Assembly (NCBI GenBank): GCA_017560905.1
Contig: JAFZEA010000028.1
Span: forward strand, 1 to 37,044
From: Clostridia bacterium
GTDB taxonomy: Bacteria > Bacillota > Clostridia > Oscillospirales > QAKW01
DNA length: 37,044 nucleotides
Direction: 5' to 3'
How positions within the stretch are numbered: the first letter of the stretch is position 1; every line of letters starts with the position of its first letter. The notes beneath the pieces are model-generated. The model searched no databases. It worked only from the letters and a program-made list of their open reading frames with translations, and had not been told where the DNA came from. The translations under genes and the position numbers were made by a program. Positions 12,773-34,812 of the stretch are shown one piece after another.

Positions 12773-13819
12773 ATGAAATTCAACAGAAAAAAAAGCTTTA
12801 GCTTTTGGCGCAAACTGATGTCCTTCAACGATATCGGCATTGACCTGGGCACAGCCAACACCATCGTATACAAGACCAACAAGGGTATCATCCTGCGCGA
12901 GCCCAGTGTGGTGGCGCTGGATTCCTATGACCGCCGCCCCTTGGCCGTGGGTCTGCAGGCCAAACAGATGATCGGCCGCACCCCCGACTCCATTATGGCC
13001 ATCCGTCCCCTCAAGGAAGGTGTTATTGCCGACCTCGACGGTACCGCCGTTATGCTGCGCTACTTTTTGCGCAAAGCTATGGGCAAGGGTGTATTTTCCA
13101 AGGTCCGTATTCTCATCTGTGTTCCTTACGGTGTTACCGATGTTGAGCGCCGCGCAGTAGAAGAGAGTGCCTATCAGACCGGTGCCAAGGACGTGCGCAC
13201 CATCGAGGAGCCTCTGGCCGCCGCCATCGGTGCGGGCCTGCCCGTCAGCGAACCCACCGGCAGTATGGTCGTGGACATCGGCGGCGGTACCAGTGAAATC
13301 GCCGTAGTTTCTATGGGCGGTATCGTTACCAGTAAGTCGGTACGTATCGCCGGTGACGCCATGGACACCGCCATCGTCAACTATATCAAAAAGACCTTTA
13401 ATCTCTTTATCGGTGACAAGACCAGCGAAGAGATCAAAATTGCTATCGGCAGCGCCCATCCTTATGAAGGTGAGGGCGAGATGTCCATTCACGGCCGTGA
13501 TCTGGTATCGGGTCTGCCCAAAAACATCGTCATCAACTCCGCCCAGATCCGTGAGGCTATGAAGGAACCCATCCAGATCATTTTGGCAGCCATCAAGGAA
13601 ACATTGGAGAACACACCGCCCGAGCTTGCCGCCGATATCATTGACCGCGGCATTACGCTGACAGGCGGCGGCGCTATGATCCACGGTCTGGACACCCTGA
13701 TCTCCAAAGAGACCGGTATCAACGTTCACATTGCCGACAATCCTTTGGATTGCGTGGCGCTGGGCACCGGCAAAACACTGGAAAATCCCCATCTTTGGGA
13801 AGCACTGAGTAACTATTAA
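12773..13819 (+). CDS. mreB: Rod-shape-determining actin homologue MreB
   Basis: Cytosolic actin-like ATPase that forms membrane-bound filaments steering lateral wall synthesis. 348 residues. The DIGIDLGTANTIVY phosphate-1 loop begins at about residue 20, IVDIGGGTSEIAVVS is the phosphate-2 loop, and LTGGGAMIHGLD is the adenosine motif. GGAGG lies 7 bases before ATG 12773, supporting a 15-residue basic and aromatic N-terminal leader (MKFNRKKSFSFWRKL) before the usual MreB start; this could serve as a membrane-binding helix. It is followed by mreC, mreD and a PBP2, the classic elongasome order. Confidence 0.95.
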   Translation: MKFNRKKSFSFWRKLMSFNDIGIDLGTANTIVYKTNKGIILREPSVVALDSYDRRPLAVGLQAKQMIGRTPDSIMAIRPLKEGVIADLDGTAVMLRYFLRKAMGKGVFSKVRILICVPYGVTDVERRAVEESAYQTGAKDVRTIEEPLAAAIGAGLPVSEPTGSMVVDIGGGTSEIAVVSMGGIVTSKSVRIAGDAMDTAIVNYIKKTFNLFIGDKTSEEIKIAIGSAHPYEGEGEMSIHGRDLVSGLPKNIVINSAQIREAMKEPIQIILAAIKETLENTPPELAADIIDRGITLTGGGAMIHGLDTLISKETGINVHIADNPLDCVALGTGKTLENPHLWEALSNY

Positions 13820-13833
13820 GGAAGAATACAGTA

Positions 13834-14676
13834 ATGGGACATTTTTTTAGATCCCGCGCATTTATCGGTATGTGTATCATAGCGGTATTGCTGACGGGAC
13901 TGGGTCTGCTGAGTATGTCCGAGCGTGGTCGGGTCACCATCATAGAGGACTTTGTGGGCATCGTGATCACGCCCTTGCAAAAGGCCTCCAACCGCTTGGT
14001 CAAAGCCGCAGGCAACTTTAAAAAAGTTTTTACTGAATATGATCTGCTGCAGGAGGAGAACACCGCCCTCAAAGAGCAGCTTGCCGCCGCAGAGGATCAG
14101 TTACGTGATGCCGAAGAGGACATCGTGGAAAACAAAACGTTGCGTGGCGCACTGGGACTGGCGGAAGAAAACCCCGATATGCAGTTTGTTTCTGCGCACA
14201 TCAGCGGCAGTGATATGGACAGCTATGCCCAGACACTGACTCTGGACTGCGGCTCGGTACACGGAGTATCCGCCCGTGATATGGTTGTCACCGGCGAGGG
14301 CATCGTGGGCTACGTCAGCGAGGTGGGTACCACCTGGTGCAAGGTAATGACCATACTGGATCCCTCCTGCGAGATCGGTGTTGTGTTGACCCGTACGGGT
14401 ACGGCCGCCGTATTGCAGGGTGATGCCACTATGAGTGCCGACGGTCGATGCAAAACCGCCTATCTCAAAAACGATATTACCCTGACCGTAGGCGACAGCA
14501 TTGAAACCAGCGGCATCGGCGGATTGTTCCCCGATGGTCTGTTTGTCGGTCGCGTGCGCGAGATCAAAAGCGAAAGCACGGGTCTGTCACAATACGCCGT
14601 CGTCGAGCCGGCAGTGGATATCAAAAACATCAGCACCGTACTGATCATTACGGAATTTTTAGGTCAAGAAGAGTAA
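13834..14676 (+). CDS. mreC: Rod-shape-determining protein MreC
   Basis: A bitopic membrane protein of 280 residues that links MreB filaments to the external wall enzymes. One N-terminal transmembrane segment (about 9-28) is followed by a coiled coil (about 65-105, LLQEENTALKEQLAAAEDQL-type) and the double beta-barrel extracellular domain (about 115-275) with VVTGEGIVGYV, GDSIETSGIGGLFPDGL and VGRV segments typical of MreC. Length and order are standard. It lies 14 bases after mreB and 3 bases before mreD. Confidence 0.95.
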   Translation: MGHFFRSRAFIGMCIIAVLLTGLGLLSMSERGRVTIIEDFVGIVITPLQKASNRLVKAAGNFKKVFTEYDLLQEENTALKEQLAAAEDQLRDAEEDIVENKTLRGALGLAEENPDMQFVSAHISGSDMDSYAQTLTLDCGSVHGVSARDMVVTGEGIVGYVSEVGTTWCKVMTILDPSCEIGVVLTRTGTAAVLQGDATMSADGRCKTAYLKNDITLTVGDSIETSGIGGLFPDGLFVGRVREIKSESTGLSQYAVVEPAVDIKNISTVLIITEFLGQEE

Positions 14677-14679
14677 TCT

Positions 14680-15198
14680 ATGGCAAGAGCGCTGCGATAC
14701 AAGTGCATAGGCTACGGCTGTATGGTATTGTTTTTCTACATCCTGCAGTCTGCCGCAGACTCCCCTGCCCGTGTAATGGGGCAGATGCCGAGCTTTATGC
14801 TGTTGCTGACCATCGCCGTCAGCTTCAGAGAAAGCGAGGTATTCTCCGCCTATTTCGGTTTGATCTGCGGATTTCTCAGCGATGCTGTCACCGGCAGCAC
14901 CGTTGGTTTTCGTGCGGTCCTTTATATGTTTTTAGGCTTTTTTTTGGCCATCGCACTGCAAACGCTCTTCCGTCCCTTATTTTTAAGTTACGTCTGCGTT
15001 ACGCTGACCGTACTGACGGCAAGTGTAATGCTTGACTATCTGTTTTTTATACTGCTGGACGGCAGTATTGCTTTTACCGAGGCACTGCTGCGTATTATGC
15101 TGCCGCAGATCTTGCTCAGCGGCGTATGGAGTTACATCGTTTATTACGTAGTGTATCGCTATAATCTGACTCTTAAGCGAAAGGGGATCATATCATGA
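14680..15198 (+). CDS. mreD: Rod-shape-determining protein MreD
   Basis: An integral membrane protein of 172 residues with about five hydrophobic segments and few charges between them. It is recognised by size, hydropathy, the GLICGFLSDAVTGSTVG segment and position between mreC and the PBP2 gene. MreD is poorly conserved, so context carries much of the call. Its TGA stop overlaps the ATG of the PBP2 gene (ATGA), which implies coupled translation. Confidence 0.9.
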   Translation: MARALRYKCIGYGCMVLFFYILQSAADSPARVMGQMPSFMLLLTIAVSFRESEVFSAYFGLICGFLSDAVTGSTVGFRAVLYMFLGFFLAIALQTLFRPLFLSYVCVTLTVLTASVMLDYLFFILLDGSIAFTEALLRIMLPQILLSGVWSYIVYYVVYRYNLTLKRKGIIS

Positions 15199-17222
15199 AC
15201 CTGAGAGAAGGCCGTTTTCGCTTTATTATGCTGATCGTCACCGTTATAGTGGTGTTCGGCAGTTTTATTTTTGCGCTGATCAATTTGCAGATCGGCCAGG
15301 GCGCTTACTATAAAGAGCTTTCCGAAAAGCGCATTTCCACCACCGAAACGGTGTCGGCCGCCCGTGGCAACATCTACGACCGTAACGGTGAACTTTTGGT
15401 CACCAACCGCAACGGCTACAACATTACGCTGTCCAAAGCGGTACTGCAGCAGGGAGATCAGAACGCTACCATTTTGGGTCTGTGCAAGCTTTTGAGCAGT
15501 TACAACACCTCCTACAACGACAGCTTGCCCATCACACTGACAGAACCCTTTACCTTTGACAAAAGCAGTGATACCAATATCTCAGCTTTGGAAAAGTTGT
15601 TTGATACCTATCATCTTGGGGAAAACGCCACCCCCACCGATCTCATCAAAAAAATGGGGGAAGCCTATGACGTATCCCCCGGTTACACTCCTGCGGAAAA
15701 GCGCATTATCGTTGGCGTGCGCTACGAGATGGAGTTCAGAGAGTTTACGATGAGCAACCCCTTTATTCTGGCGGAGGACGTCCCCATAGAAACGGTCATC
15801 GCTGTCAGCGAGCGCAGTGTAGAGTACCCTTGTGTCACCGTGGAAACCGCAGCCTACCGTGAATATGCCGATCCCTCCATTACGCCCCATATCTTAGGCT
15901 ACATCGGCAAGATCTGGGCAGAGGAATACCCCGACCTCAAAGACCAAGGCTACAAAATGAGCGATCAGGTGGGCAAGGCAGGCATTGAAAAAGTCGCAGA
16001 AAATCACCTGCGCGGCACCGACGGTGTGCGCCTGATCGAGCGCAACGCTTCGGGTGAAGTGCTCAACGTCACCACAGTCAGCGAACCGATACAGGGCGAC
16101 AGCGTGGTGCTGACCATTGACAAGCAGTTGCAGATCACCACGCAGAATGCACTAAAAAATGTCATTACCAATCTGCAGAATTACCATGAAACACGGGATG
16201 CCAGTGCAGGCGCCGCCGTGGTGGTACAAGTCGATACGGGCGAGGTACTGGCCAGTGCCACCTACCCCACCTACGATGCCGCCACCTATCTCTCAAACTA
16301 CAATTCTTTGCTGGAAAACAAAGACAAGCCGCTGCTCAACCGTGCCTTTGGCGGCACCTATGCCCCCGGCTCCACCTTTAAAATGGCCACTGCCATTGCC
16401 GTTCTGGAGGAGGACGTCGTTCAGCCCTCCACCAAGATTCTGGACGAGGGTGTTTACCGCAAATATACAGGCTACCACCCCAAGTGCTGGCGTTACACTG
16501 ACTACGGTGCCACCCACGGCCGTGTCAACGTTTCCGAAGCGCTCAGAGACAGTTGTAACTATTTCTTCTACCAATCGGCAGACGAGATGGGCATCGACCT
16601 GCTCAACAAATACTGCAAGCAGTTGGGACTGGGCAGTAAGACGGGTCTGGAGGTCAGCGAGTCTGCAGGCATTCTGGCAGGCCCCGAATCAAGAAACAGC
16701 GAATGGTATCCCGGTGATACCCTGCAAGCCGCCATCGGCCAGTCAGACAACCTGTTTACCCCCGTACAGCTGGCCACCTACGTTGCCACTATCGTCAACG
16801 GCGGTACCCGCTACAGAACACATCTGATCAAATCTGTCAAGGACTCGGTTTCGGGACGTGACGTACTGGTCAATGCCCCTGCCGCCGTCAGCGAGATCAA
16901 CATTGACGAGGACAATATGGATGCGGTTATGGAGGGCATGTACCTCACCGCCGCCGAAGGAACCGCGGCCAACGTATTTGCCAACTATCCCGTCAACATC
17001 GGCTGTAAAACAGGTACCGCCTCGGTGCCCAGCGGCACGGCCAACGGTATCTTTGTCGCCTTTGCTCCCTACGAGGACCCCGAAATTGCTGTCTGCGTGG
17101 TGGTAGAGCACGGCGCCCACGGTAACTCCATCGCCCCCATCGCCAAGATGGTATTCGACGAATATTTCTCTATCAATGAATATGCCGGCCAAGAGGTCGG
17201 CGGCATCTATCTCCAGCCGTAA
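15195..17222 (+). CDS. mrdA: Penicillin-binding protein 2 (elongasome transpeptidase)
   Basis: Class B penicillin-binding protein that cross-links lateral-wall peptidoglycan; one membrane span with the enzyme outside. 675 residues. N-terminal transmembrane helix at about 11-33; the dimerisation and pedestal domain begins near RGNIYDRNGELLV; the transpeptidase domain covers about 295-660. The three catalytic motifs are intact: Ser393-X-X-Lys396 (STFK), Ser453-X-Asn455 (SCN) and Lys605-Thr-Gly (KTG). It ends the mre run, followed by a hairpin at 17247. In many Clostridia this position is followed by minC-minD-minE-rodA-mgsA; here those genes do not follow, and minD and mgsA lie 10 kb further on, on the other strand. 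Confidence 0.94.
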   Translation: MNLREGRFRFIMLIVTVIVVFGSFIFALINLQIGQGAYYKELSEKRISTTETVSAARGNIYDRNGELLVTNRNGYNITLSKAVLQQGDQNATILGLCKLLSSYNTSYNDSLPITLTEPFTFDKSSDTNISALEKLFDTYHLGENATPTDLIKKMGEAYDVSPGYTPAEKRIIVGVRYEMEFREFTMSNPFILAEDVPIETVIAVSERSVEYPCVTVETAAYREYADPSITPHILGYIGKIWAEEYPDLKDQGYKMSDQVGKAGIEKVAENHLRGTDGVRLIERNASGEVLNVTTVSEPIQGDSVVLTIDKQLQITTQNALKNVITNLQNYHETRDASAGAAVVVQVDTGEVLASATYPTYDAATYLSNYNSLLENKDKPLLNRAFGGTYAPGSTFKMATAIAVLEEDVVQPSTKILDEGVYRKYTGYHPKCWRYTDYGATHGRVNVSEALRDSCNYFFYQSADEMGIDLLNKYCKQLGLGSKTGLEVSESAGILAGPESRNSEWYPGDTLQAAIGQSDNLFTPVQLATYVATIVNGGTRYRTHLIKSVKDSVSGRDVLVNAPAAVSEINIDEDNMDAVMEGMYLTAAEGTAANVFANYPVNIGCKTGTASVPSGTANGIFVAFAPYEDPEIAVCVVVEHGAHGNSIAPIAKMVFDEYFSINEYAGQEVGGIYLQP

Positions 17223-25957: not shown

Positions 25958-27217
25958 CTATTGTACATCAGCGGCACACAGCGCATCCAGTGCTATTTCT
26001 TTAGGCTCGCCGCCGTTCATATCTTTCAGTGTGATCTTCCCGCTTTCCAGTTCGCCGTCGCCCAGCACGATGACGTGACGAGCGCCGATCTTGGAGGCGT
26101 ATTTCATCTGCGCTTTAAGACTTTTGCCCATCAGGTCGGTAACAACGCCTGCCCCTGCACCTGTCAGTTCCGCCACAAGCGCCGCCGCCTTGACCTTGGC
26201 AGCCTCGCCCATAGGCGCAATATACAGATCAGGCACTTTTTTATCCTCTAAGGTAATGCCCTGACTTTCCAGCATCAGCAAAAACCGCTCCATACCCATC
26301 GCAAATCCGATGCCGGGGAAATCCTCACCGCCCAGCTGCTCGGTCATACCGTCGTAGCGGCCGCCGCCGCATACGGTGGACTGAGCGCCAAGGTCTGTAC
26401 TTACAAATTCAAACACCGTGCGGTTATAATAGTCAAGACCTCTTACGATCCGTGCATCGATCTCAAAGGGAATGTTCATCGCGCCAAGATAGGATTGCAC
26501 CTTTTCAAAGTGATCGGCGCAGTCAGAACAGATGTGGTCGAGAATCAGCGGAGCCTCTTTGCCAAGTTCCTTGCATCCCGCATCCTTACAATCGAGAATA
26601 CGCATCGGATTCTTTTCCAAACGGGTCAGACAGGTGGGACAAAGCTTGTCCTTTTTGTCCTCAAAATAAGCTCTCAGCTTATTTCTGTACTCCGCTCTGC
26701 AGCTGCGGCAACCGATGGAATTGAGGTGAAGTGTCACTCCGCTTACACCCAGTCGCTCAAACAACTGATGGGGCAGTGAGATCAGCGTGGCATCACTCAT
26801 CGGGTCGGTGGCGCCGAACATCTCCACACCAAACTGGTGAAACTCTCTGAGTCTTCCCTTCTGCGGTTTTTCGTAGCGGTAGCAACCGATCAGATAAAAC
26901 AGCTTGACGGGCATCGGCGCATTGAACAGACCGTTTTCCAAAAAGGAACGGACCACACCGGCCGTGCCCTCGGGGCGCAGGGTGATGCTTCTGCCACCCT
27001 TGTCCTCAAAGGTATACATTTCTTTACTCACCACGTCGGTGGTGTCCCCCACACCACGGGAGAATACCTCGGTATGCTCCACCACAGGCGTGCGGATCTC
27101 TTCAAAGCCGTGTCTGCCGCAAATATCACGGATGACGTTTTCCAGCGCCGTCCACTTGCCGCTGTTCTCCGGCAAAATATCAAGCATCCCCTTGGGGGCG
27201 GATATTTTCTCTGACAT
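25958..27217 (-). CDS. hisS: Histidyl-tRNA synthetase
   Basis: A class II synthetase of 419 residues that charges tRNA-His. N-terminal [13 protein letters not shown] and motif 1 region; motif 2 [22 protein letters not shown]; histidine-specific [13 protein letters not shown]; motif 3 [13 protein letters not shown]; and an anticodon-binding domain over the last ~95 residues (DLYIAPMGE ... [16 protein letters not shown]). Two Cys clusters (CRSC and CPTCLTR ... CKDAGC ... CSDC) are seen in many Clostridia, possibly a zinc knuckle. A T-box leader lies upstream, as usual for synthetase genes. aspS follows at once, the normal hisS-aspS pair of Firmicutes. Confidence 0.96.
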
Positions 27218-27490: not shown

Positions 27491-27889
27491 TCATTTGTTA
27501 ATATACATTCTCCAATCCAGATCGCCCCGATCGAGTGCCATAATGATGACCTCGGCGGTGGCAATGTTGGTGGCAACGGGCACATTGTGCACGTCGCACA
27601 AGCGAAGGATCAGATTCTCCTCACGCTCCAGCTTGGAGGGGGTGGAGGGATCACGGAAATACAGCATTATATCCACATCATCACAGGATATTCTCGCCGC
27701 AATCTGGTCGGCGCCACCTTGTGTGCCGCTCAGAAAACGCTGAATCTCCATTCCCGTTGCCTCAGCGATCAGATTCGCGGTGGTCGCAGTAGCTCCGATA
27801 TTGTGCTTAGACAAAATACCGGCATAAGCAATACAAAATTGAACCATCAGTTCCTTTTTCTTTTCATCCGCAATAAGCGCTATATTCAC
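27491..27889 (-). CDS. mgsA: Methylglyoxal synthase
   Basis: Converts dihydroxyacetone phosphate to methylglyoxal and phosphate, a cytosolic bypass of lower glycolysis used under phosphate limitation or sugar-phosphate stress. 132 residues, the size of clostridial MgsA. Family motifs: NIALIADEKKKELMVQFC, phosphate-binding FLSGTQGGADQIAARI, DIMLYFRDP, and LCDVHNVPVATNIATAEVII. The start is GTG at 27889 with AAAGGAGA 6 bases upstream. It follows minD by 21 bases; the minD-mgsA neighbourhood is common in Clostridia, where minE and rodA often intervene, but not here. Regulation is probably from the minD promoter. Confidence 0.93.
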   Translation of the reverse strand: MNIALIADEKKKELMVQFCIAYAGILSKHNIGATATTANLIAEATGMEIQRFLSGTQGGADQIAARISCDDVDIMLYFRDPSTPSKLEREENLILRLCDVHNVPVATNIATAEVIIMALDRGDLDWRMYINK

Positions 27890-27910: not shown

Positions 27911-28669
27911 CTAAAATTTCTTTTTCCTCCACAAGGGAGACAGGGGCATTTGTTTACCGCACAGCCGCCAAGCGATGCGCACAAGCGCATCGGCCGCCGA
28001 CGCCTTTTTCTCTTCAAAAATACTGCGGCGGGTATTGGCACATACCATTACCTTTTCATCCTCCGGGATAATGCCCAGAAGCGGCAGACCGATCTCATCC
28101 ATTATGTTGTCCACATTTTCAAAATATCCTTTTTTGACAAATGCGGGTCGCATACGGTTAATGATCAACTGCACGGGAATGGGATGCATACCAACGATCA
28201 AAGCGGCAGCTCTGCCCGCATCCCGAATGGCGGTGATGTCGGGTGTTGCCACCACAAGGGCACGGTCTGCGGCGTACACTGCAGAGGCAAAGCCCTCTCC
28301 CAGTCCTGCCGGACAGTCGAGCAACACGTAATCACAGCTCTGGGCCAGCTTTTTGCAAAGCTCTCTGAGCTTCTTTTCCTCAATGTGCGCTCTGAAATCC
28401 GCCGCAGCGGGAATCATCGAAAGATTCCGATAACGGTTGTGCGTAACCAATGCTTTGTGCAACGGTGTACGCTCACTCAGGACGTCGGAAAGATCAAATA
28501 TCGTCTTTTCCTCCAGTCCCAGTGCAATATCCAGATTGTTCAGTCCCGTATCGCAATCGATACAGACCACTTTTTTATCCTGCAAGGCCAGTGCCGTCGC
28601 AAGAAAAGCACAAAGTGTGGTCTTACCCACACCGCCCTTGCCGGAAACAATGGCAACTATCTCTCCCAT
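27911..28669 (-). CDS. minD: Septum-site-determining ATPase MinD
   Basis: 252 residues, ParA/MinD family. Deviant Walker A SGKGGVGKTT (9-18), switch region DCDTGLNNLDIALGLE, LLDCPAGLGEG (where MinD proteins have the DxPAG motif), TPDITAIRDAGRA, and INRMRPAFVKKG, all diagnostic of MinD rather than ParA or Mrp. The C-terminus ends in SPLWRKKKF, short and basic, a possible reduced membrane-targeting helix. The start is ATG 28669, preceded by AAGGGAAG; the frame extending to 28792 would cross the promoter. No minC or minE is adjacent. MinD recruits MinC to block division away from midcell; with no partner gene here, a DivIVA-type or stand-alone arrangement is possible. Confidence 0.9.
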   Translation of the reverse strand: MGEIVAIVSGKGGVGKTTLCAFLATALALQDKKVVCIDCDTGLNNLDIALGLEEKTIFDLSDVLSERTPLHKALVTHNRYRNLSMIPAAADFRAHIEEKKLRELCKKLAQSCDYVLLDCPAGLGEGFASAVYAADRALVVATPDITAIRDAGRAAALIVGMHPIPVQLIINRMRPAFVKKGYFENVDNIMDEIGLPLLGIIPEDEKVMVCANTRRSIFEEKKASAADALVRIAWRLCGKQMPLSPLWRKKKF

Positions 28670-28726: not shown

Positions 28727-28770
28727 GTAAAAAAATATTATTAAGTACAATTTTGTTTCAAATAATTTCC

Positions 28771-28812
28771 AAAAGGGGCTGTAAAAAAACAACTTTTTTT
28801 ACAGCCCCTTTT
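28771..28812 (-). terminator. Strong terminator of the acyl-CoA ligase operon
   Basis: A perfect 19-bp stem (28771-28789 with 28794-28812) with a CAAC loop, beginning 1 base after the ligase stop. U-rich arms serve the minus strand. Confidence 0.85.
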
Positions 28813-28813
28813 A

Positions 28814-30511
28814 TTAGTTTCGTTTATTGTCTTCCCGATGCTGCAGGGATTTCCAGTCAACCTTACCCACTTTGGTCACGGGCAGGCTCTCCATCAGCTC
28901 CACCACACGAGGACGACTGTATACGCTGAGTTCTTTTTTGCAAACAGCCAGTATTTCGGAAACAAAGGCTTTTGGCACCTCGGGCATCTGAGCGGGCTGA
29001 ATGATCGCCTTGATGACGTTCATTTTATAGTCGTCAGGTACCGCCACACAGCAACAACGCGCCACACCGGGCAGACTCTCGATAAACTGCTCGATCTTGC
29101 CGGGATAGACGGGAAAGCCCGATACCTTGACAATGCGCTTGATGCGCCCTGCAAAGAAAAGGTACCCCTCCTCGTCCATACGTCCCATATCCCCCGTTTT
29201 GAGCCACACCGTGCCGTCACGGTCGGTAAACAGTACCTTTTGCGTTTCCGCACTGTCAAGATAGCCCAGCATCACGGTGGGGCCGGAGATGACAATTTCA
29301 CCCGTTTGCCCTGCGGTAAGCTCTGTCATAGTTTCGGGATCGCAGATCTTGACACAGACCTCGGGCAGAGGTACGCCGATAGACCCCTCTTTCTCCCGTT
29401 TGGGCGGAGTGACCACGCAAGCGGTCACCGTTTCGGTCAGTCCGTAGCCCTCTTTGAGGGTGACGGAGGCGTTATGCTCTTTGAGGAAAATATCAAAGCG
29501 CTTTTTAAGTGTGGGCGGACAGGCATCGCCGCCGACAAACACACCCTTGAGAAAAGAAAGGTCAATACTCTTTATGCTCTTTTCTCTGAGCAGAGCCTCA
29601 TACAGCGTGGGTACGCCGGTGATAATGTTCGGTTTTTTGGATTTGAGAATAGCGGCAAATTCCTTGGCGTTAAACTGCGCCACCATAATGGAGGTCATAC
29701 CGTATATCAAAGCTGCGTGCATACACACGCCCAGCCCGAACCCGTGAAAAAAGGGCAATATCGCCATCATTCGTGGCTCCTCGGGCCAGTGCTCGATCTG
29801 GCAGTACACCTGTCCTGCCAGCGCCGCAAAATTGCGTGCCGACAGACATATTCCCTTAGGCTCGCCGCTCGAGCCGCCGCTGAACAAAATGACGGCGGTA
29901 TCCCGCTCGGGGTCGGTCGCCACGGGCGGTGCGGGACATTCGTAATCGTTGTGAGAGAGCAGTTCTTTGAACTTTACAGGCACCTCGGGGGGACGTTTGA
30001 GTCCCGCTTTTTTGAGCACGATGCGGCGCACGATGGCACGCTTAATGAGCGGCGCATCCTGCCACATAGAGCAACACACAATGTTGTGCAGACCGCTGTT
30101 TTCCAGCATCTCTCTGTGCTTGGCATAGGCTACATCCATCAGAAAAAGTGCCTTAGCCTCACTCTGCCGCAAAAATTCCTGTAGCTCTGCCGTAGAGGAC
30201 AACGGATGCACCATAACGCTCACCGCGCCCACTCGACTGACGGCATAAAACAGCGCAGCGGCATCGGGCATATTGGGCAGGCAAATGCACACGCGATCGC
30301 CCTTTGAAATGCCGAGGTTGATCAGCGCATTGCTGAGAATGTCCGCTCTGGAAAGCAGTTTGTCAAACCGCACGGTAGCGCCGAAATAATCCACCGCATT
30401 TTTGTATCGGTTTTTGTAGGCGGAGCGACGAAACTGCTCGTAGAGAGTACCTGCCGCATACTCGGGATGGGCAGGTACATAATCATATTGTTTTTGCCAG
30501 ATGGGTTGCAT
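28814..30511 (-). CDS. AMP-dependent acyl-CoA synthetase/ligase
   Basis: A 565-residue ANL-superfamily enzyme that activates a carboxylic acid, probably a fatty acid, with ATP and then CoA. Core motifs: phosphate-binding ILFSGGSSGEPKG (variant of TSGTTGxPKG, about residue 210), YGLTET (A5), LKTGDMGRMDEEGYLFFAGR (A7-A8 hinge) and the catalytic lysine region PVTKVGKVDW near the C-terminus. It most resembles long-chain acyl-CoA synthetases; the chain-length preference cannot be read. Last gene of a four-gene operon, 2 bases after the membrane protein gene, with a terminator directly after the stop. The pairing with a wall hydrolase and epimerase is unusual. Confidence 0.9.
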   Translation of the reverse strand: MQPIWQKQYDYVPAHPEYAAGTLYEQFRRSAYKNRYKNAVDYFGATVRFDKLLSRADILSNALINLGISKGDRVCICLPNMPDAAALFYAVSRVGAVSVMVHPLSSTAELQEFLRQSEAKALFLMDVAYAKHREMLENSGLHNIVCCSMWQDAPLIKRAIVRRIVLKKAGLKRPPEVPVKFKELLSHNDYECPAPPVATDPERDTAVILFSGGSSGEPKGICLSARNFAALAGQVYCQIEHWPEEPRMMAILPFFHGFGLGVCMHAALIYGMTSIMVAQFNAKEFAAILKSKKPNIITGVPTLYEALLREKSIKSIDLSFLKGVFVGGDACPPTLKKRFDIFLKEHNASVTLKEGYGLTETVTACVVTPPKREKEGSIGVPLPEVCVKICDPETMTELTAGQTGEIVISGPTVMLGYLDSAETQKVLFTDRDGTVWLKTGDMGRMDEEGYLFFAGRIKRIVKVSGFPVYPGKIEQFIESLPGVARCCCVAVPDDYKMNVIKAIIQPAQMPEVPKAFVSEILAVCKKELSVYSRPRVVELMESLPVTKVGKVDWKSLQHREDNKRN

Positions 30512-30513
30512 AG

Positions 30514-31308
30514 CTATTCCTCTTTGTCCGCGATCTTTTCTACCTGGCGCATGCTGACGATCTGATAGTGCAGTTCTTCATATGCCAGTTCATTTTCGTC
30601 GCCGGAGGTCACTTTTTTGAGCGTATAGACCTCACGCTTGCGGAAGTTTGCCTCGTTGGCCAGAGGATCCTCGTCCACATCGTTATTCTGATAACAGTCC
30701 ACCGTTACCTGTGCGGTCTGATTTTCCTCATCCAGCGTGATCTCCACGACATTGGGAATGAGGTATTCGGTGGGATAAGAAATGGGTACGGTATAGGTAC
30801 CGTTAAGACGGTTGTAGGTAAAGTCACCGCACACCGTCATATTGCGGTGCTTGTAGCTTTCGGTATAATCGGTGTAGTAGTTAGCCAGTTTTTCCACCAA
30901 TCTCTTGGGCACACGGTAAGCCTGCCCATCCTCGCCCGAAGCCAAAACGCCCTGAGAATTGTTCAGCGTTATGGCCTGCCACAGACCGAAGCTGATCAGA
31001 TATTCGCTGTCCAGCTCGTTAATGGAAGTAAAGGAGGGTACGTCCTGCATAACAAAGTTATCCAGCAGTATCTCAAAGTATTCCTCGCTGTCCGCCTCAA
31101 CAGAGGACAACTGATCGTACAACGCAGAAGCCGCTGCAATGTTGTTTGTGTCCACACCCTCGGAATATACGTCGGCACGGAACAAACCAACGACACCGAC
31201 GATCAAGGATATGATCAGCCATATCACCAAACCGATAAAGGCCAAACCTATACAAAAGGTCAGCGCCATACGTTTTTTACTGGGATGAGTGTTAGGCGCA
31301 GTTTCCAT
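30514..31308 (-). CDS. Unknown membrane-anchored protein
   Basis: 264 residues; I recognise no family. A short cytosolic N-terminus (METAPNTHPSKKR) is followed by one strongly hydrophobic segment (about 15-42) and an acidic extracytoplasmic region (about 45-264) rich in Asp and Glu, with beta-type stretches (TYTVPISYPTEYLIPNVVEITLDEENQTAQVTVDCY). No cysteine-rich, enzymatic or signal-sensing motif is visible. It lies 2 bases after galM and 2 bases before the acyl-CoA ligase, so the three are surely co-expressed. AAAGGAGG lies 7 bases before the ATG. It is a good candidate for a small extracellular sensor or accessory protein, but that is a guess. Confidence 0.8.
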   Translation of the reverse strand: METAPNTHPSKKRMALTFCIGLAFIGLVIWLIISLIVGVVGLFRADVYSEGVDTNNIAAASALYDQLSSVEADSEEYFEILLDNFVMQDVPSFTSINELDSEYLISFGLWQAITLNNSQGVLASGEDGQAYRVPKRLVEKLANYYTDYTESYKHRNMTVCGDFTYNRLNGTYTVPISYPTEYLIPNVVEITLDEENQTAQVTVDCYQNNDVDEDPLANEANFRKREVYTLKKVTSGDENELAYEELHYQIVSMRQVEKIADKEE

Positions 31309-31310
31309 AT

Positions 31311-32336
31311 TTATTCCTCCTTTATAAAGGCATACGCTGTTTTACTGTGATAGGTTTCCCCCGCTTTAACAAGGGTAGAGGGGAAATGGGGCTGGTTGGG
31401 GCTGTCGGGATAATGCTGTGTTTCCAGACAAAAGCCCTCCCACTTATTGTACCCGTTGGCGGTGCCTTTACCCGCTGTGCTGGAGAGCACATTGCCGGCA
31501 TAAAACTGTACGCCCACCTCATCGGTAAACACGTTCATTGTGATACCGCTTCGGGGGCTGTATGCCTGCACTGCCAAGCGGAAGCCCTCGCCGTCCAGAC
31601 AGTAATTGTGGTCGTAACCGTCGCCGTAAGACAACTGCTTGTCATCGGCCTTGATCTCTTTGCCGATGGCTTTGGGCGCAGTAAAGTCAAAGGGTGTGCC
31701 TGCCACCAGACGGAGTACGCCTGTGGGAATGAGTTTTTCATCTACGGGCAGGTAGCGTCCCGCCAAGATTTGCAGACGGGTGTCCAGTATATCTCCGTTG
31801 CCCGCACCGCTCAGATTGAAGTAACAGTGATTGGTAAGATTGACAGGTGTATCCTCATCGCCCACGGCGCTGTATTCCAGTATCAGTGCGTCCTCCTCTA
31901 TGGAAAAACGCATCTCTACCGCCAGCGTACCGGGATAACCGCTGTCCGCTCCCTTGTCTGTCAGACACAGGGTAACGGCATTGTCCTCCATGCTTTTTTC
32001 TTGCCAAAACAGCTCGTTGTACCCCACGTTTCCGCCGTGGAGATGGTTGACGCCGTCGTCGTTTTTGTCTACGCTGTACTGCTTACCGTCTACGGTAAAG
32101 CTACCCCCGGCAATGCGGTTGCCGTAGCGGCCGATGGTGGCGCCCAGATAACCTCCGTTGTCCTCATAGCCTGCCACATCATCGTACCCCAGTGCTACGT
32201 CGACCCCTTTGTAGATCAAGGATTGGATGGTAGCACCTCTGTCGAGGATACCGACACTGAGATCTCCGTTTCGAATGGTGTAAAGCGTAACAACTTTACC
32301 ATCTTTGTCTGTTCCAAAAATACTTTTACTGACCAT
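31311..32336 (-). CDS. galM: Aldose 1-epimerase (galactose mutarotase)
   Basis: 341 residues. Interconverts alpha and beta anomers of hexoses for galactose and glucose use. Family motifs: GATIQSLI, GRYGNRIAGG, NHLHGG, the catalytic His region TNHCYFNLSG, YDHNYCLD, and the Glu motif CLETQHYPDSPNQP. No signal peptide, so cytosolic. The start is ATG 32336, because AGGAGG lies a few bases upstream; the longer frame to 32354 would run through that site. The gene begins 10 bases after the glucosaminidase stop and is the second gene of the operon. No galactose genes are nearby, so its role in a wall-hydrolase operon is unclear. Confidence 0.93.
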   Translation of the reverse strand: MVSKSIFGTDKDGKVVTLYTIRNGDLSVGILDRGATIQSLIYKGVDVALGYDDVAGYEDNGGYLGATIGRYGNRIAGGSFTVDGKQYSVDKNDDGVNHLHGGNVGYNELFWQEKSMEDNAVTLCLTDKGADSGYPGTLAVEMRFSIEEDALILEYSAVGDEDTPVNLTNHCYFNLSGAGNGDILDTRLQILAGRYLPVDEKLIPTGVLRLVAGTPFDFTAPKAIGKEIKADDKQLSYGDGYDHNYCLDGEGFRLAVQAYSPRSGITMNVFTDEVGVQFYAGNVLSSTAGKGTANGYNKWEGFCLETQHYPDSPNQPHFPSTLVKAGETYHSKTAYAFIKEE

Positions 32337-32346
32337 ATTTTTCCTC

Positions 32347-34812
32347 CTAATCAAATACCGGAATTACAAATTCTATTTCACTGTCCAACGTACCGCCGGC
32401 CACGTGCGCCTTATAGCACTGCCCTGCGTCCTGCACGGGAGCCGCCACATCGGTCATATACTGATGCCAGTTACGACCGGGTACAAAACAGTATTTTATA
32501 AAATACGGGGTATATTGCAGTACCGAAATGTACTGCGACTTGATCCAAACCGCACCCTCCACAATGGCGATGCGCTGGGTGGACCAGCCCTGCTCTTTGG
32601 CATAGATTGCCCCCTTCTTGGGGTTGGCATCCACGGCGTCAATGCCGTAAAAATTGTAGTAGCCCTCATACCCCGAAGCCAATCCCTTGGCAAGGTTTGA
32701 GGTACCGTTACCGCTCTCCAGCGAGGCTCTGGCGCCGATAAAGTAGGGGGAGAGACCCGCCACCTTTCCCGCCTCAAGGAAGCACTGCACGTAATAATTC
32801 TCACTTGCCAGCGCCCCCTCCCTCTGTGACCAGACGGCGGCTAAGCCCTCAGCGGAATAAGTACCCTCGTGGTAGGTTTGCTTTTCAAACATAAAGATAT
32901 CCTGCTCATTGAGGAAATTGGCGGGATTGATGTAATAATACAGTTCGCTCTCGGTGGGTGTGCGCCAACGGGTGGAGGTGGTAATGATCGGATTCTGCTT
33001 ACGCTCGTCCGCCACCGCTTTGTCCAGGCTCTTGCCCGCCTTGACAAAGGTAAACTTCCAGTTGGGGTGCGCTTTTTTGAGCTTATTTATGGCAGAAGCA
33101 TAGGAAGAGGGCATGGCGCACTTTTCGTAATCGTCGAAAATTCGGTGCTGCTGTACCCAGCCGCTCCTGCCGCTGCCGTCGGTCAACTCTATGCCGATCA
33201 TATTGTTTTGCTTGCCGCCCGTCAGCATTACTTTTGTACCCGAAGACAGGTAGCCCAGCACATCGGAGGATGTCAGTGGCTGACTGTACAACGGTGTGGA
33301 ATTGTCCAGAATAAAGGCATATCCCAGCTGATAGCTGCCTCTATCGGTGATGCAAAGTGTCAGCGTGCGATCTTCCGAAGCATTTTCTATATGAATTTTT
33401 ACGGTGTTTTTGCCTGGACGAAGCGGCATATCCTCCCCTTCTTTAAAAGAGTAGGTGTTGCCCGCCGCCGTTGTCAGCGTCATGGTGATTTTGCTCTTTC
33501 TGGCGGTCTGCACGTCGGTTATGCGTTTGCCCGTCAGGCCGTTACACACGGCGGTATAATAATTCTCCCCCTCCTCGACGGTGGAGGCAAGCTTAAAGCC
33601 AAAGGTTTCCAGTCCGTGCAACTTTACGCCCATATAGTAAAACCGCAGGTTATACCTTGCATCCCGTACACTGCCGTCCACGGTGCGCAAAGCCAGAGCA
33701 TACACATCCTGCAGCCCGTAAAACACGATTTCTTCGCTCACACCCTTTTTTGAGGTGTAGCGACCGATGAGATTTTTGTTCTCGTCGTAGGCCATAATCT
33801 GCAGCGCCGCATCCACGCCCGAAAGTTCCAGCGCCAGTGCTTCCAGATCGTCCTTGACGTCCTTGCCGAGAATGAAAAAGTCCTCGTCGCCGTAATAATC
33901 AAACACGCCGCTGTACTCGTCGTCCAGCCCTGCGGAGGTCATATTTTTCTGCCATTCGTTCTGATCACGATGGAAACCCATCTTCACCTGCCCTTCATCC
34001 GCCGCATTGATCTTGAGCAAAAATCTGCCGGCGGAAGCGGCACGGTAATAGATTTCCTCGGTTTCACGCTCCCCTGCATAACGGGTGCTGACCTTGTGAT
34101 AAGTATGATCGTACATTTCCCAGCTGCTGCCCTTGGGAAGCCCCGAGAGAAACAAGCTGATAAATTCGTTATCGGTGGTAAAGGTTATGTAGACGTAATC
34201 CCCCGGTCCCGTAAAGGAAAGGTACTGCTCGTGGTCGGCATCCACGGCAAAGGGGTGGGACAGCGTTCCCTCAAAAGCGTTTCGCTGACAAATGCGCACC
34301 GCCTTGACAGCGGAAATATACCGATCGTCGTCCAAACGGTAATAATATTTGCCGTCAATTTTTTCAATCTCACGGTATATGAGTTCCTGACCTGCCTTGT
34401 ATGTCACGCCCGTGGCGGTACTGCCGTCCTCGGTTTCCTCAACGTCCTGTATCAAATGAACACGCTTGGCCATAGGCAGATCCATCGTAGCGGTCAACTG
34501 CTGCTTTTGCCGATAGCGGTCATAAAACGTCACACGGTAGGGCGTGGTGGTATTTTCCTCGATATAGATCTGGTTTTTGAGTTGATCGCCCTGGACAAAA
34601 AAGTTGGTACCCGAATTGTTGACATAAGAATTCTGCAAACGTTCATCATTGTCTTCGGTGGAAGAATCCAGATAAAAGATCTGCATCCCCGTGTAAAAAT
34701 CACCGTCCTCGTCCTCAGGCGGCTGCCATACCGACAGCATCGTGATCACCGTGACGAGTATCAGGGCAAGTCCCAGCAGGGGAATCCATGCAATTTTCCA
34801 AAAACTTTTCAA
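32347..34812 (-). CDS. Membrane-anchored SH3 and GH73-type glucosaminidase
   Basis: 821 residues. N-terminal transmembrane anchor (about 7-30), then a long unassigned region (about 40-500) with beta-rich repeats, an SH3-type domain (about 520-580, YSQPLTSSDVLGYLSSGTKVML ... GWVQQHRI), and a C-terminal glucosaminidase domain (about 590-800) with ARASLESGNGTS containing the likely catalytic Glu699 and NFYGIDAVDANP, as in LytD/AcmA-type GH73 enzymes. It should cleave peptidoglycan glycan strands outside the cell. TTG start at 34812, with AAAGGAG 9 bases upstream. First gene of an operon continuing to the acyl-CoA ligase; its promoter is at 34848-34876. Unusually long for the family. Confidence 0.9.
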   Translation of the reverse strand: MKSFWKIAWIPLLGLALILVTVITMLSVWQPPEDEDGDFYTGMQIFYLDSSTEDNDERLQNSYVNNSGTNFFVQGDQLKNQIYIEENTTTPYRVTFYDRYRQKQQLTATMDLPMAKRVHLIQDVEETEDGSTATGVTYKAGQELIYREIEKIDGKYYYRLDDDRYISAVKAVRICQRNAFEGTLSHPFAVDADHEQYLSFTGPGDYVYITFTTDNEFISLFLSGLPKGSSWEMYDHTYHKVSTRYAGERETEEIYYRAASAGRFLLKINAADEGQVKMGFHRDQNEWQKNMTSAGLDDEYSGVFDYYGDEDFFILGKDVKDDLEALALELSGVDAALQIMAYDENKNLIGRYTSKKGVSEEIVFYGLQDVYALALRTVDGSVRDARYNLRFYYMGVKLHGLETFGFKLASTVEEGENYYTAVCNGLTGKRITDVQTARKSKITMTLTTAAGNTYSFKEGEDMPLRPGKNTVKIHIENASEDRTLTLCITDRGSYQLGYAFILDNSTPLYSQPLTSSDVLGYLSSGTKVMLTGGKQNNMIGIELTDGSGRSGWVQQHRIFDDYEKCAMPSSYASAINKLKKAHPNWKFTFVKAGKSLDKAVADERKQNPIITTSTRWRTPTESELYYYINPANFLNEQDIFMFEKQTYHEGTYSAEGLAAVWSQREGALASENYYVQCFLEAGKVAGLSPYFIGARASLESGNGTSNLAKGLASGYEGYYNFYGIDAVDANPKKGAIYAKEQGWSTQRIAIVEGAVWIKSQYISVLQYTPYFIKYCFVPGRNWHQYMTDVAAPVQDAGQCYKAHVAGGTLDSEIEFVIPVFD

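Follow-up and report, generated by a model that had tools for sequence, protein, structure and literature searches.

The contig analysed here (the window: 37,044 nucleotides, contig JAFZEA010000028.1 of GenBank assembly GCA_017560905.1, from a Clostridia bacterium of the GTDB lineage Bacteria; Bacillota; Clostridia; Oscillospirales; QAKW01) carries on its minus strand four closely spaced genes, which encode a wall glucosaminidase, an aldose 1-epimerase (GalM), an unnamed membrane protein of 264 residues (termed U264) and an acyl-CoA ligase of the ANL superfamily. What is conserved of this unit within the family of the window is not the four-gene set but the pair of U264 and the ANL gene, which as a rule is followed by minD. 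In the window genus the ANL protein possesses all catalytic motifs of a ligase, whereas its counterparts in two sister genera have lost them and are still under selection. The account put forward here, which has about an even chance of being right, is that the U264-ANL pair constitutes the functional core of the unit, and that within this pair an enzyme has turned into a protein partner.

The family sample comprises three genera, i.e., the window genus (g1; the window and genome G001) and the sister genera g2 (four genomes) and g3 (six genomes). U264 is present in all 12 genomes, and in 11 of them its gene is directly adjacent to the ANL gene on the same strand. The exception is G011, in which a gene of the GH20 type on the opposite strand (locus L034, 7647-9518) is situated between the two. 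The order found in g2 and g3 is U264, then a protein with an AMP-binding domain (337 to 420 residues), then minD, mgsA and hisS; eight g2/g3 loci were measured, with a gap between U264 and the ANL gene of 2 to 53 bases in seven and of 212 bases in G006. The ANL gene in turn adjoins minD in 11 of the 12 genomes, the exception being G001, where uvrC comes after the pair and minD is located on a different contig. On the far side of U264, mreB is found a few kb away in g2, and a U32 peptidase gene in g3. Concerning the other families of the order, 18 minD loci were read, taken from 40 non-family genomes with a MinD match. An ANL gene precedes minD in none of these 18 loci, and a PBP2-like transpeptidase gene stands directly upstream of minD in eight of them (three called by Pfam, five by eye). 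With a PBP2-like gene at this place in eight of the loci from other families, the pair has, in the family of the window, come to sit in the mre-PBP2-min region.

The linked proteins of g2 and g3 all match PF00501 (10 of 10, E values between 6e-7 and 7e-21, two slightly under the cut-off) and can be aligned over the full length of the window ligase. None of the ten contains an intact P-loop, YGxTE, TGD, hinge or catalytic-lysine motif (presumably A3, A4, A5, A7, A8 and A10 in the common labelling of ANL motifs), whereas the same motifs are intact in both g1 copies; among the canonical ligases (n = 19), the only departures concern A5 in one sequence (YGTTVC) and A7 in another (TGN). The reading frames of the linked ANL genes are open in all ten genomes. 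Within genera, the ratio of nonsynonymous to synonymous substitution rates (dN/dS) of the linked g2/g3 proteins ranges from 0.15 to 0.24 over five pairs, which is about two to three times higher than in MinD (0.07-0.10), while the intact g1 pair exhibits a value of 0.24; all of these figures are rough, with synonymous sites near saturation. Open frames and purifying selection together indicate that these are maintained proteins and not decaying genes. Because the linked ANL proteins of these ten genomes retain no intact motif, acyl activation is unlikely as the conserved function, and to judge from the sequences the conserved role is probably non-catalytic, that of a pseudoenzyme partnering a single-pass membrane protein.

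A separate, intact ligase with 38-42% identity to that of the window exists in all ten g2/g3 genomes, whereas a separate canonical ligase was not found in either g1 genome (the next best match reaching 27%). The linked gene is hence intact where it is the sole copy and devoid of motifs where a second ligase exists, a pattern that fits a dual-role gene of which only the non-catalytic role is conserved. In the MinD tree, g2 and g3 are joined at 85/90 (not a starred branch) and g1 lies outside; a single loss of catalysis would therefore be enough. In the ancestor of the family, an acyl-CoA ligase gene would have been copied beside U264, ahead of minD-mgsA-hisS, and its product would have become a cytoplasmic partner of U264, as the constant gene order, the 2-base gap or 4-base overlap in g1 and the joint retention of both genes suggest. 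In the common ancestor of g2 and g3, the linked copy would have lost its ATP-binding and catalytic motifs while still being selected, with the separate intact ligase kept, such that the conserved role of the linked protein in these genera would be structural or ligand-sensing instead of enzymatic. In g1, the linked gene would have stayed an intact ligase serving both roles, and a membrane-anchored glucosaminidase and GalM would later have been placed ahead of the pair, giving the four-gene operon. The process served by the pair is most likely cell-wall growth or division, judged from the mre, min and PBP2 neighbourhood. One family would thus display the states before and after such a change at a single locus, and the unnamed membrane protein stays its neighbour throughout, which renders a change from enzyme to partner testable. 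ANL pseudoenzymes kept for a non-catalytic role seem to be little described: in a literature search, none of the papers listed concerns a U264-ANL pair, and in a narrow test no paper of the collection searched combined 'pseudoenzyme' with 'ANL superfamily'.

Alternatively, g1 and g2/g3 might carry different genes at this place, one AMP-binding paralogue having replaced the other without any transition from enzyme to pseudoenzyme at the locus. In the ligase trees (which omit the long fusion outgroups L065 and L069 and the partial ligases L054 and L063), the canonical ligases form a clade at 98/99 (71/79 without the g2 pseudoenzyme rows), and both the g1 and the pseudoenzyme proteins fall outside it. 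In the unconstrained trees, g1 groups with the canonical ligases, though weakly supported (49/31, and 74/72 once the g2 pseudoenzyme rows are omitted), which speaks for a replacement. A clade of g1 and pseudoenzyme proteins is not rejected (approximately unbiased test, p-AU 0.504); a grouping of pseudoenzymes with canonical ligases to the exclusion of g1 is rejected (p-AU 0.020), which speaks against a replacement. Five residues (Y32, Y36, L53, N61 and G482) are common to 11 or 12 of the 12 linked proteins and to between none and two of the 19 canonical ones, against one column with the reverse sharing pattern, counted by a slightly different rule; positions common to g1 and the canonical ligases but not to the pseudoenzymes, the catalytic motifs among them, were excluded from this count. 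As the g1 and g2/g3 genes also occupy the same place between U264 and minD, a replacement of paralogues is considered unlikely.

Several observations nevertheless weigh against the account of the U264-ANL pair put forward here. Apart from the position of g1 in the free trees, the ligase tree leaves orthology unsettled, with long branches meeting, and the outgroup was misplaced in a mixture-model tree from which the g3 pseudoenzyme rows had been omitted. The window genus is represented by two genomes only, of 61% and 85% completeness (the window is a contig of the former, a draft genome of 1.0 Mb), so that the missing second ligase may be a gap. The support of the g2/g3 proteins by PF00501 is mainly N-terminal, and the C-terminal domain is matched in two of them at E values of only 0.17-0.19. 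Remnants of the P-loop are found in g3 (SGTTG in L029 and GSSG in L034, neither with the PKG end); some nucleotide binding by the g3 proteins is conceivable. An AlphaFold model of a g2 ANL protein from a 3-row alignment reached a predicted local distance difference test score (pLDDT) of 51 and is too poor to use; the structure prediction suggested for the 264-residue protein in the first-pass annotation was run as well, but its model, from a 4-row alignment, is equally unusable (pLDDT 45). A physical association of U264 with the ANL protein would be deduced from the arrangement and joint retention of their genes. Finally, sequences ahead of minD resemble promoters when read by eye, and the window has a terminator between the pair and minD; co-transcription of the pair with minD is doubtful.

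The adjacency of U264 and the ANL gene could furthermore be an inherited order without shared function, in which the genes are packed and co-transcribed for mere convenience. hisS and mgsA are also nearby without an obvious functional link, relatives of U264 follow the housekeeping operon proBA in most loci outside the family, and in G011 an insertion that parts the two genes of the pair is tolerated. It is harder to reconcile with neutral packing that the linked protein of g2 and g3 has lost its motifs yet is under selection beside U264, and that U264 and the ANL gene have remained side by side in G001, away from minD. On balance, such packing is regarded as possible, though somewhat doubtful.

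U264 (30514-31308, minus strand) contains one hydrophobic stretch at about residues 12-49, and the remainder of the protein is predicted to be extracytoplasmic; a single hydrophobic stretch was likewise found in all 18 members of the U264 family tested. The first-pass annotation had called the protein unrecognised, and it indeed belongs to no named family in Pfam, NCBIfam or the PDB. Stray matches to Pfam and NCBIfam models appeared at E 0.07 only and none at 0.05, single scans of 21 family members against both databases gave stray matches in at most two members per family and nothing consistent, and a profile search of the PDB yielded a best E value of 0.23. Across the order, a U264 match was obtained in 47 of 394 genomes, the 12 of the family included, and with a wider profile, 10 of 391 genomes of a class-wide sample matched, all ten inside the order. 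By these searches, U264 belongs to an unnamed family of membrane proteins with a single membrane pass, for which matches were obtained inside this order only. Outside the window's family, 26 U264 loci were examined (from 25 of the 35 matching non-family genomes, plus L039, which matched only in a separate search); 24 gave a U264-like open reading frame (ORF), and L039 and L154 gave none. In 18 of these 24 loci (L036, L038, L040, L140, L141, L143-L145, L147-L153, L156, L158 and L159), proA and/or proB is situated directly upstream, on the same strand and within about 250 bases. U264 is thus not unique to the four-gene operon and elsewhere usually stands behind proBA.

From the four-gene unit, the first-pass annotation had proposed a pathway that may form or remodel an acylated glycan of the envelope. 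In such a pathway, the ligase would activate the acyl group, the epimerase would supply the sugar and the glucosaminidase would trim the wall. All four genes occur together in two of the 12 family genomes, i.e., in the window and in G001 (locus L023), with protein identities of 46-59%. In G001, U264 and the ligase gene share 4 bases, and the gap between galM and the longest U264 ORF is about 230 bases. As the identical order recurs in the only other sampled species of the genus, the unit exceeds what would be expected by chance, and its conservation at this degree of divergence, including in G001 away from minD, counts in favour of the proposed pathway. The expectation that the genes are neighbours beyond this species holds for the second species of the genus, but not for the two sister genera: in all ten g2/g3 genomes, neither galM nor the glucosaminidase gene was found within the 9-20 kb around U264 that were searched (tblastn, E 1e-5). 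The glucosaminidase orthologues of g2 (n = 4; 37-39% identity) are sited in other neighbourhoods, in which, read by eye, genes resembling those of trigger factor and phosphoglycerate mutase are seen in all four and ilv genes in three, and galM was not seen beside any of the four. Together with the loss of the ligase motifs in g2 and g3, this speaks against the glycan pathway, as does the lack of any recognisable acyltransferase or carrier protein among the proteins of the unit. The two sugar-related enzymes moreover act in different compartments, GalM on free sugars in the cytoplasm and the glucosaminidase outside. A further point in its favour is that canonical ligases stand beside an E2/CAT-type acyltransferase homologue in five genomes, such that this type of ligase may serve acyl transfer. 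Overall, the pathway is improbable and is rejected as the conserved function; within the window genus it may still hold, and the ligase may well be active there. The caveat attached to the proposal, that the link was by proximity only, was correct. The four-gene set is a young assembly around the older U264-ANL pair, which shows that the genes of an apparent pathway operon can have been brought together recently around an older core.

With regard to the neighbourhood of the pair, the gene behind it in the window is a minD (27911-28669, minus strand; TIGR01968 above cut-off), and of the 59 genomes sampled from the order, 52 give a MinD match. This likeness to the Min system, to which the PBP2-like gene upstream of minD in 8 of the 18 other-family loci adds, contrasts with the absence of further components known from MinCDE systems: neither MinC (PF03775) nor MinE (PF03776) exceeds the cut-off in any of the 59 genomes, the MinC search covering PF03775 and not the models of the N-terminal domain; one weak MinC match below the cut-off was obtained in G016 (E 9.6e-4). 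The positive controls were detected (Bacillus subtilis and Escherichia coli among them for MinC, E. coli for MinE). As MinC was not found anywhere in the order sample, its absence is a background and not peculiar to the pair. The idea that the ANL protein replaces MinC in this family was rejected, for MinC is likewise absent from the other families of the sample, in which no ANL gene was seen before minD (18 loci). Compared with an mreBCD-PBP2-min cluster, the family differs in that U264-ANL stands before minD in 11 of 12 genomes. Very tentatively, and with little probability, U264 and the ANL pseudoenzyme could be partners of MinD, the ligase fold serving in the cytoplasm as an adaptor between membrane-bound MinD and the extracytoplasmic, wall-facing U264. 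If this were true, an enzyme that activates fatty acids would have become part of the machinery of the division site or of cell shape, and the window genus, with the enzyme still intact, would be half way. The neighbourhood further includes mgsA (methylglyoxal synthase; 27491-27889) and hisS (25958-27217), both on the minus strand and parts of the conserved minD-mgsA-hisS order, and, about 11 kb from hisS-minD, an mreB-mreC-mreD-PBP2 cluster on the plus strand (12773-17222; PBP2 by Pfam, the mre genes by eye).

The unit itself corresponds to the first description of it. The glucosaminidase gene (32347-34812; 821 residues, TTG start), galM (31311-32336; 341 residues from ATG), U264 and the ligase gene (28814-30511; 565 residues) are all on the minus strand and separated by 10, 2 and 2 bases, which is exact with the ATG start of galM; an alternative TTG start at 32354 would run into the upstream gene. 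It is a compact gene unit. The strong terminator reported behind it was confirmed as a hairpin of 20 pairs with T-rich flanks (28770-28813, strand not assigned), directly 3' of the ligase stop and between the unit and minD. The stem of this hairpin consists mostly of A/T, and it is terminator-like when read on either strand. A single promoter is plausible but not demonstrated: the candidate on the minus strand (34876-34848) is a weak match of 9/12 with an extended -10 element, and promoter-like sites of this kind number 14 in the 8-kb region versus 7.0 expected. Upstream, a terminator-like hairpin of 13 pairs (34922-34894, minus strand) closes the preceding unit, which consists of a small ORF and a lipid kinase gene.

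Concerning the assignment of the individual enzymes, the window ligase exceeds the gathering thresholds of PF00501 (264.9 vs 29.9 bits) and PF13193 (45.6 vs 24.5 bits), and its P-loop, YGxTE, TGD, hinge and catalytic-lysine motifs are all present, as in the G001 copy. By these features it is an acyl-CoA ligase of the ANL superfamily with intact motifs. In possessing both domains and the motifs it resembles the long-chain-fatty-acid-CoA ligases of the FadD type, which are also its top NCBIfam models, and its top PDB match (3g7s) is a FadD-1. It differs from them in remaining below the cut-off of all 25 NCBIfam models listed (best 352 vs 705 bits) and in that its sister-genus counterparts are without any intact catalytic motif. 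A D-alanylation system of the Dlt type was rejected, as neither a carrier protein nor an MBOAT acyltransferase was recognised among the proteins of the unit or the scanned neighbours. GalM is above the cut-offs of PRK11055 (294.5 vs 240 bits) and PF01263 (280.1 vs 27 bits), like aldose 1-epimerases of this name, but below that of TIGR02636 (288 vs 398 bits).

The glucosaminidase is membrane-anchored and GH73-like, with a LYZ2/SagB-like C-terminal domain and a weak SH3-like stretch. PF01832 is matched below cut-off (26.9 vs 30.2 bits), and PDB matches lead to autolysin E and other glucosaminidase structures (E 1e-14 to 7e-8). With SagB and autolysin E it shares a single N-terminal hydrophobic anchor and a LYZ2-type domain that aligns with autolysin E across the catalytic region, including ESGNG, whereas its long N-terminal region and the SH3-like stretch set it apart, and in the SagB model NF052642 it scores 70.1 vs 425 bits. 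A partner of the SpdC type was not recognised among the proteins of the unit, to which this search was confined. A second glucosaminidase gene (645 residues) occurs in the window's own genome (locus L221, 6244-9294, on contig G000:C7), with a homologue of CAT/E2-type acyltransferases directly upstream on the same strand; in G001, no acyltransferase match of this kind was obtained at E 1e-15.

Homologues of E2/CAT-type acyltransferases (PF00198 in the one scanned) are also found directly beside the canonical ligase in three g2 genomes (G002, G004 and G008), in G046 of family f14 and in G035 of family f25, and at a distance of about 0.8 kb in G026; loci with both genes are L091 (7708-10294), L093 (3335-5984) and L102 (5848-8459). 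The canonical ligase and the acyltransferase homologue constitute a candidate two-gene module for acyl transfer.

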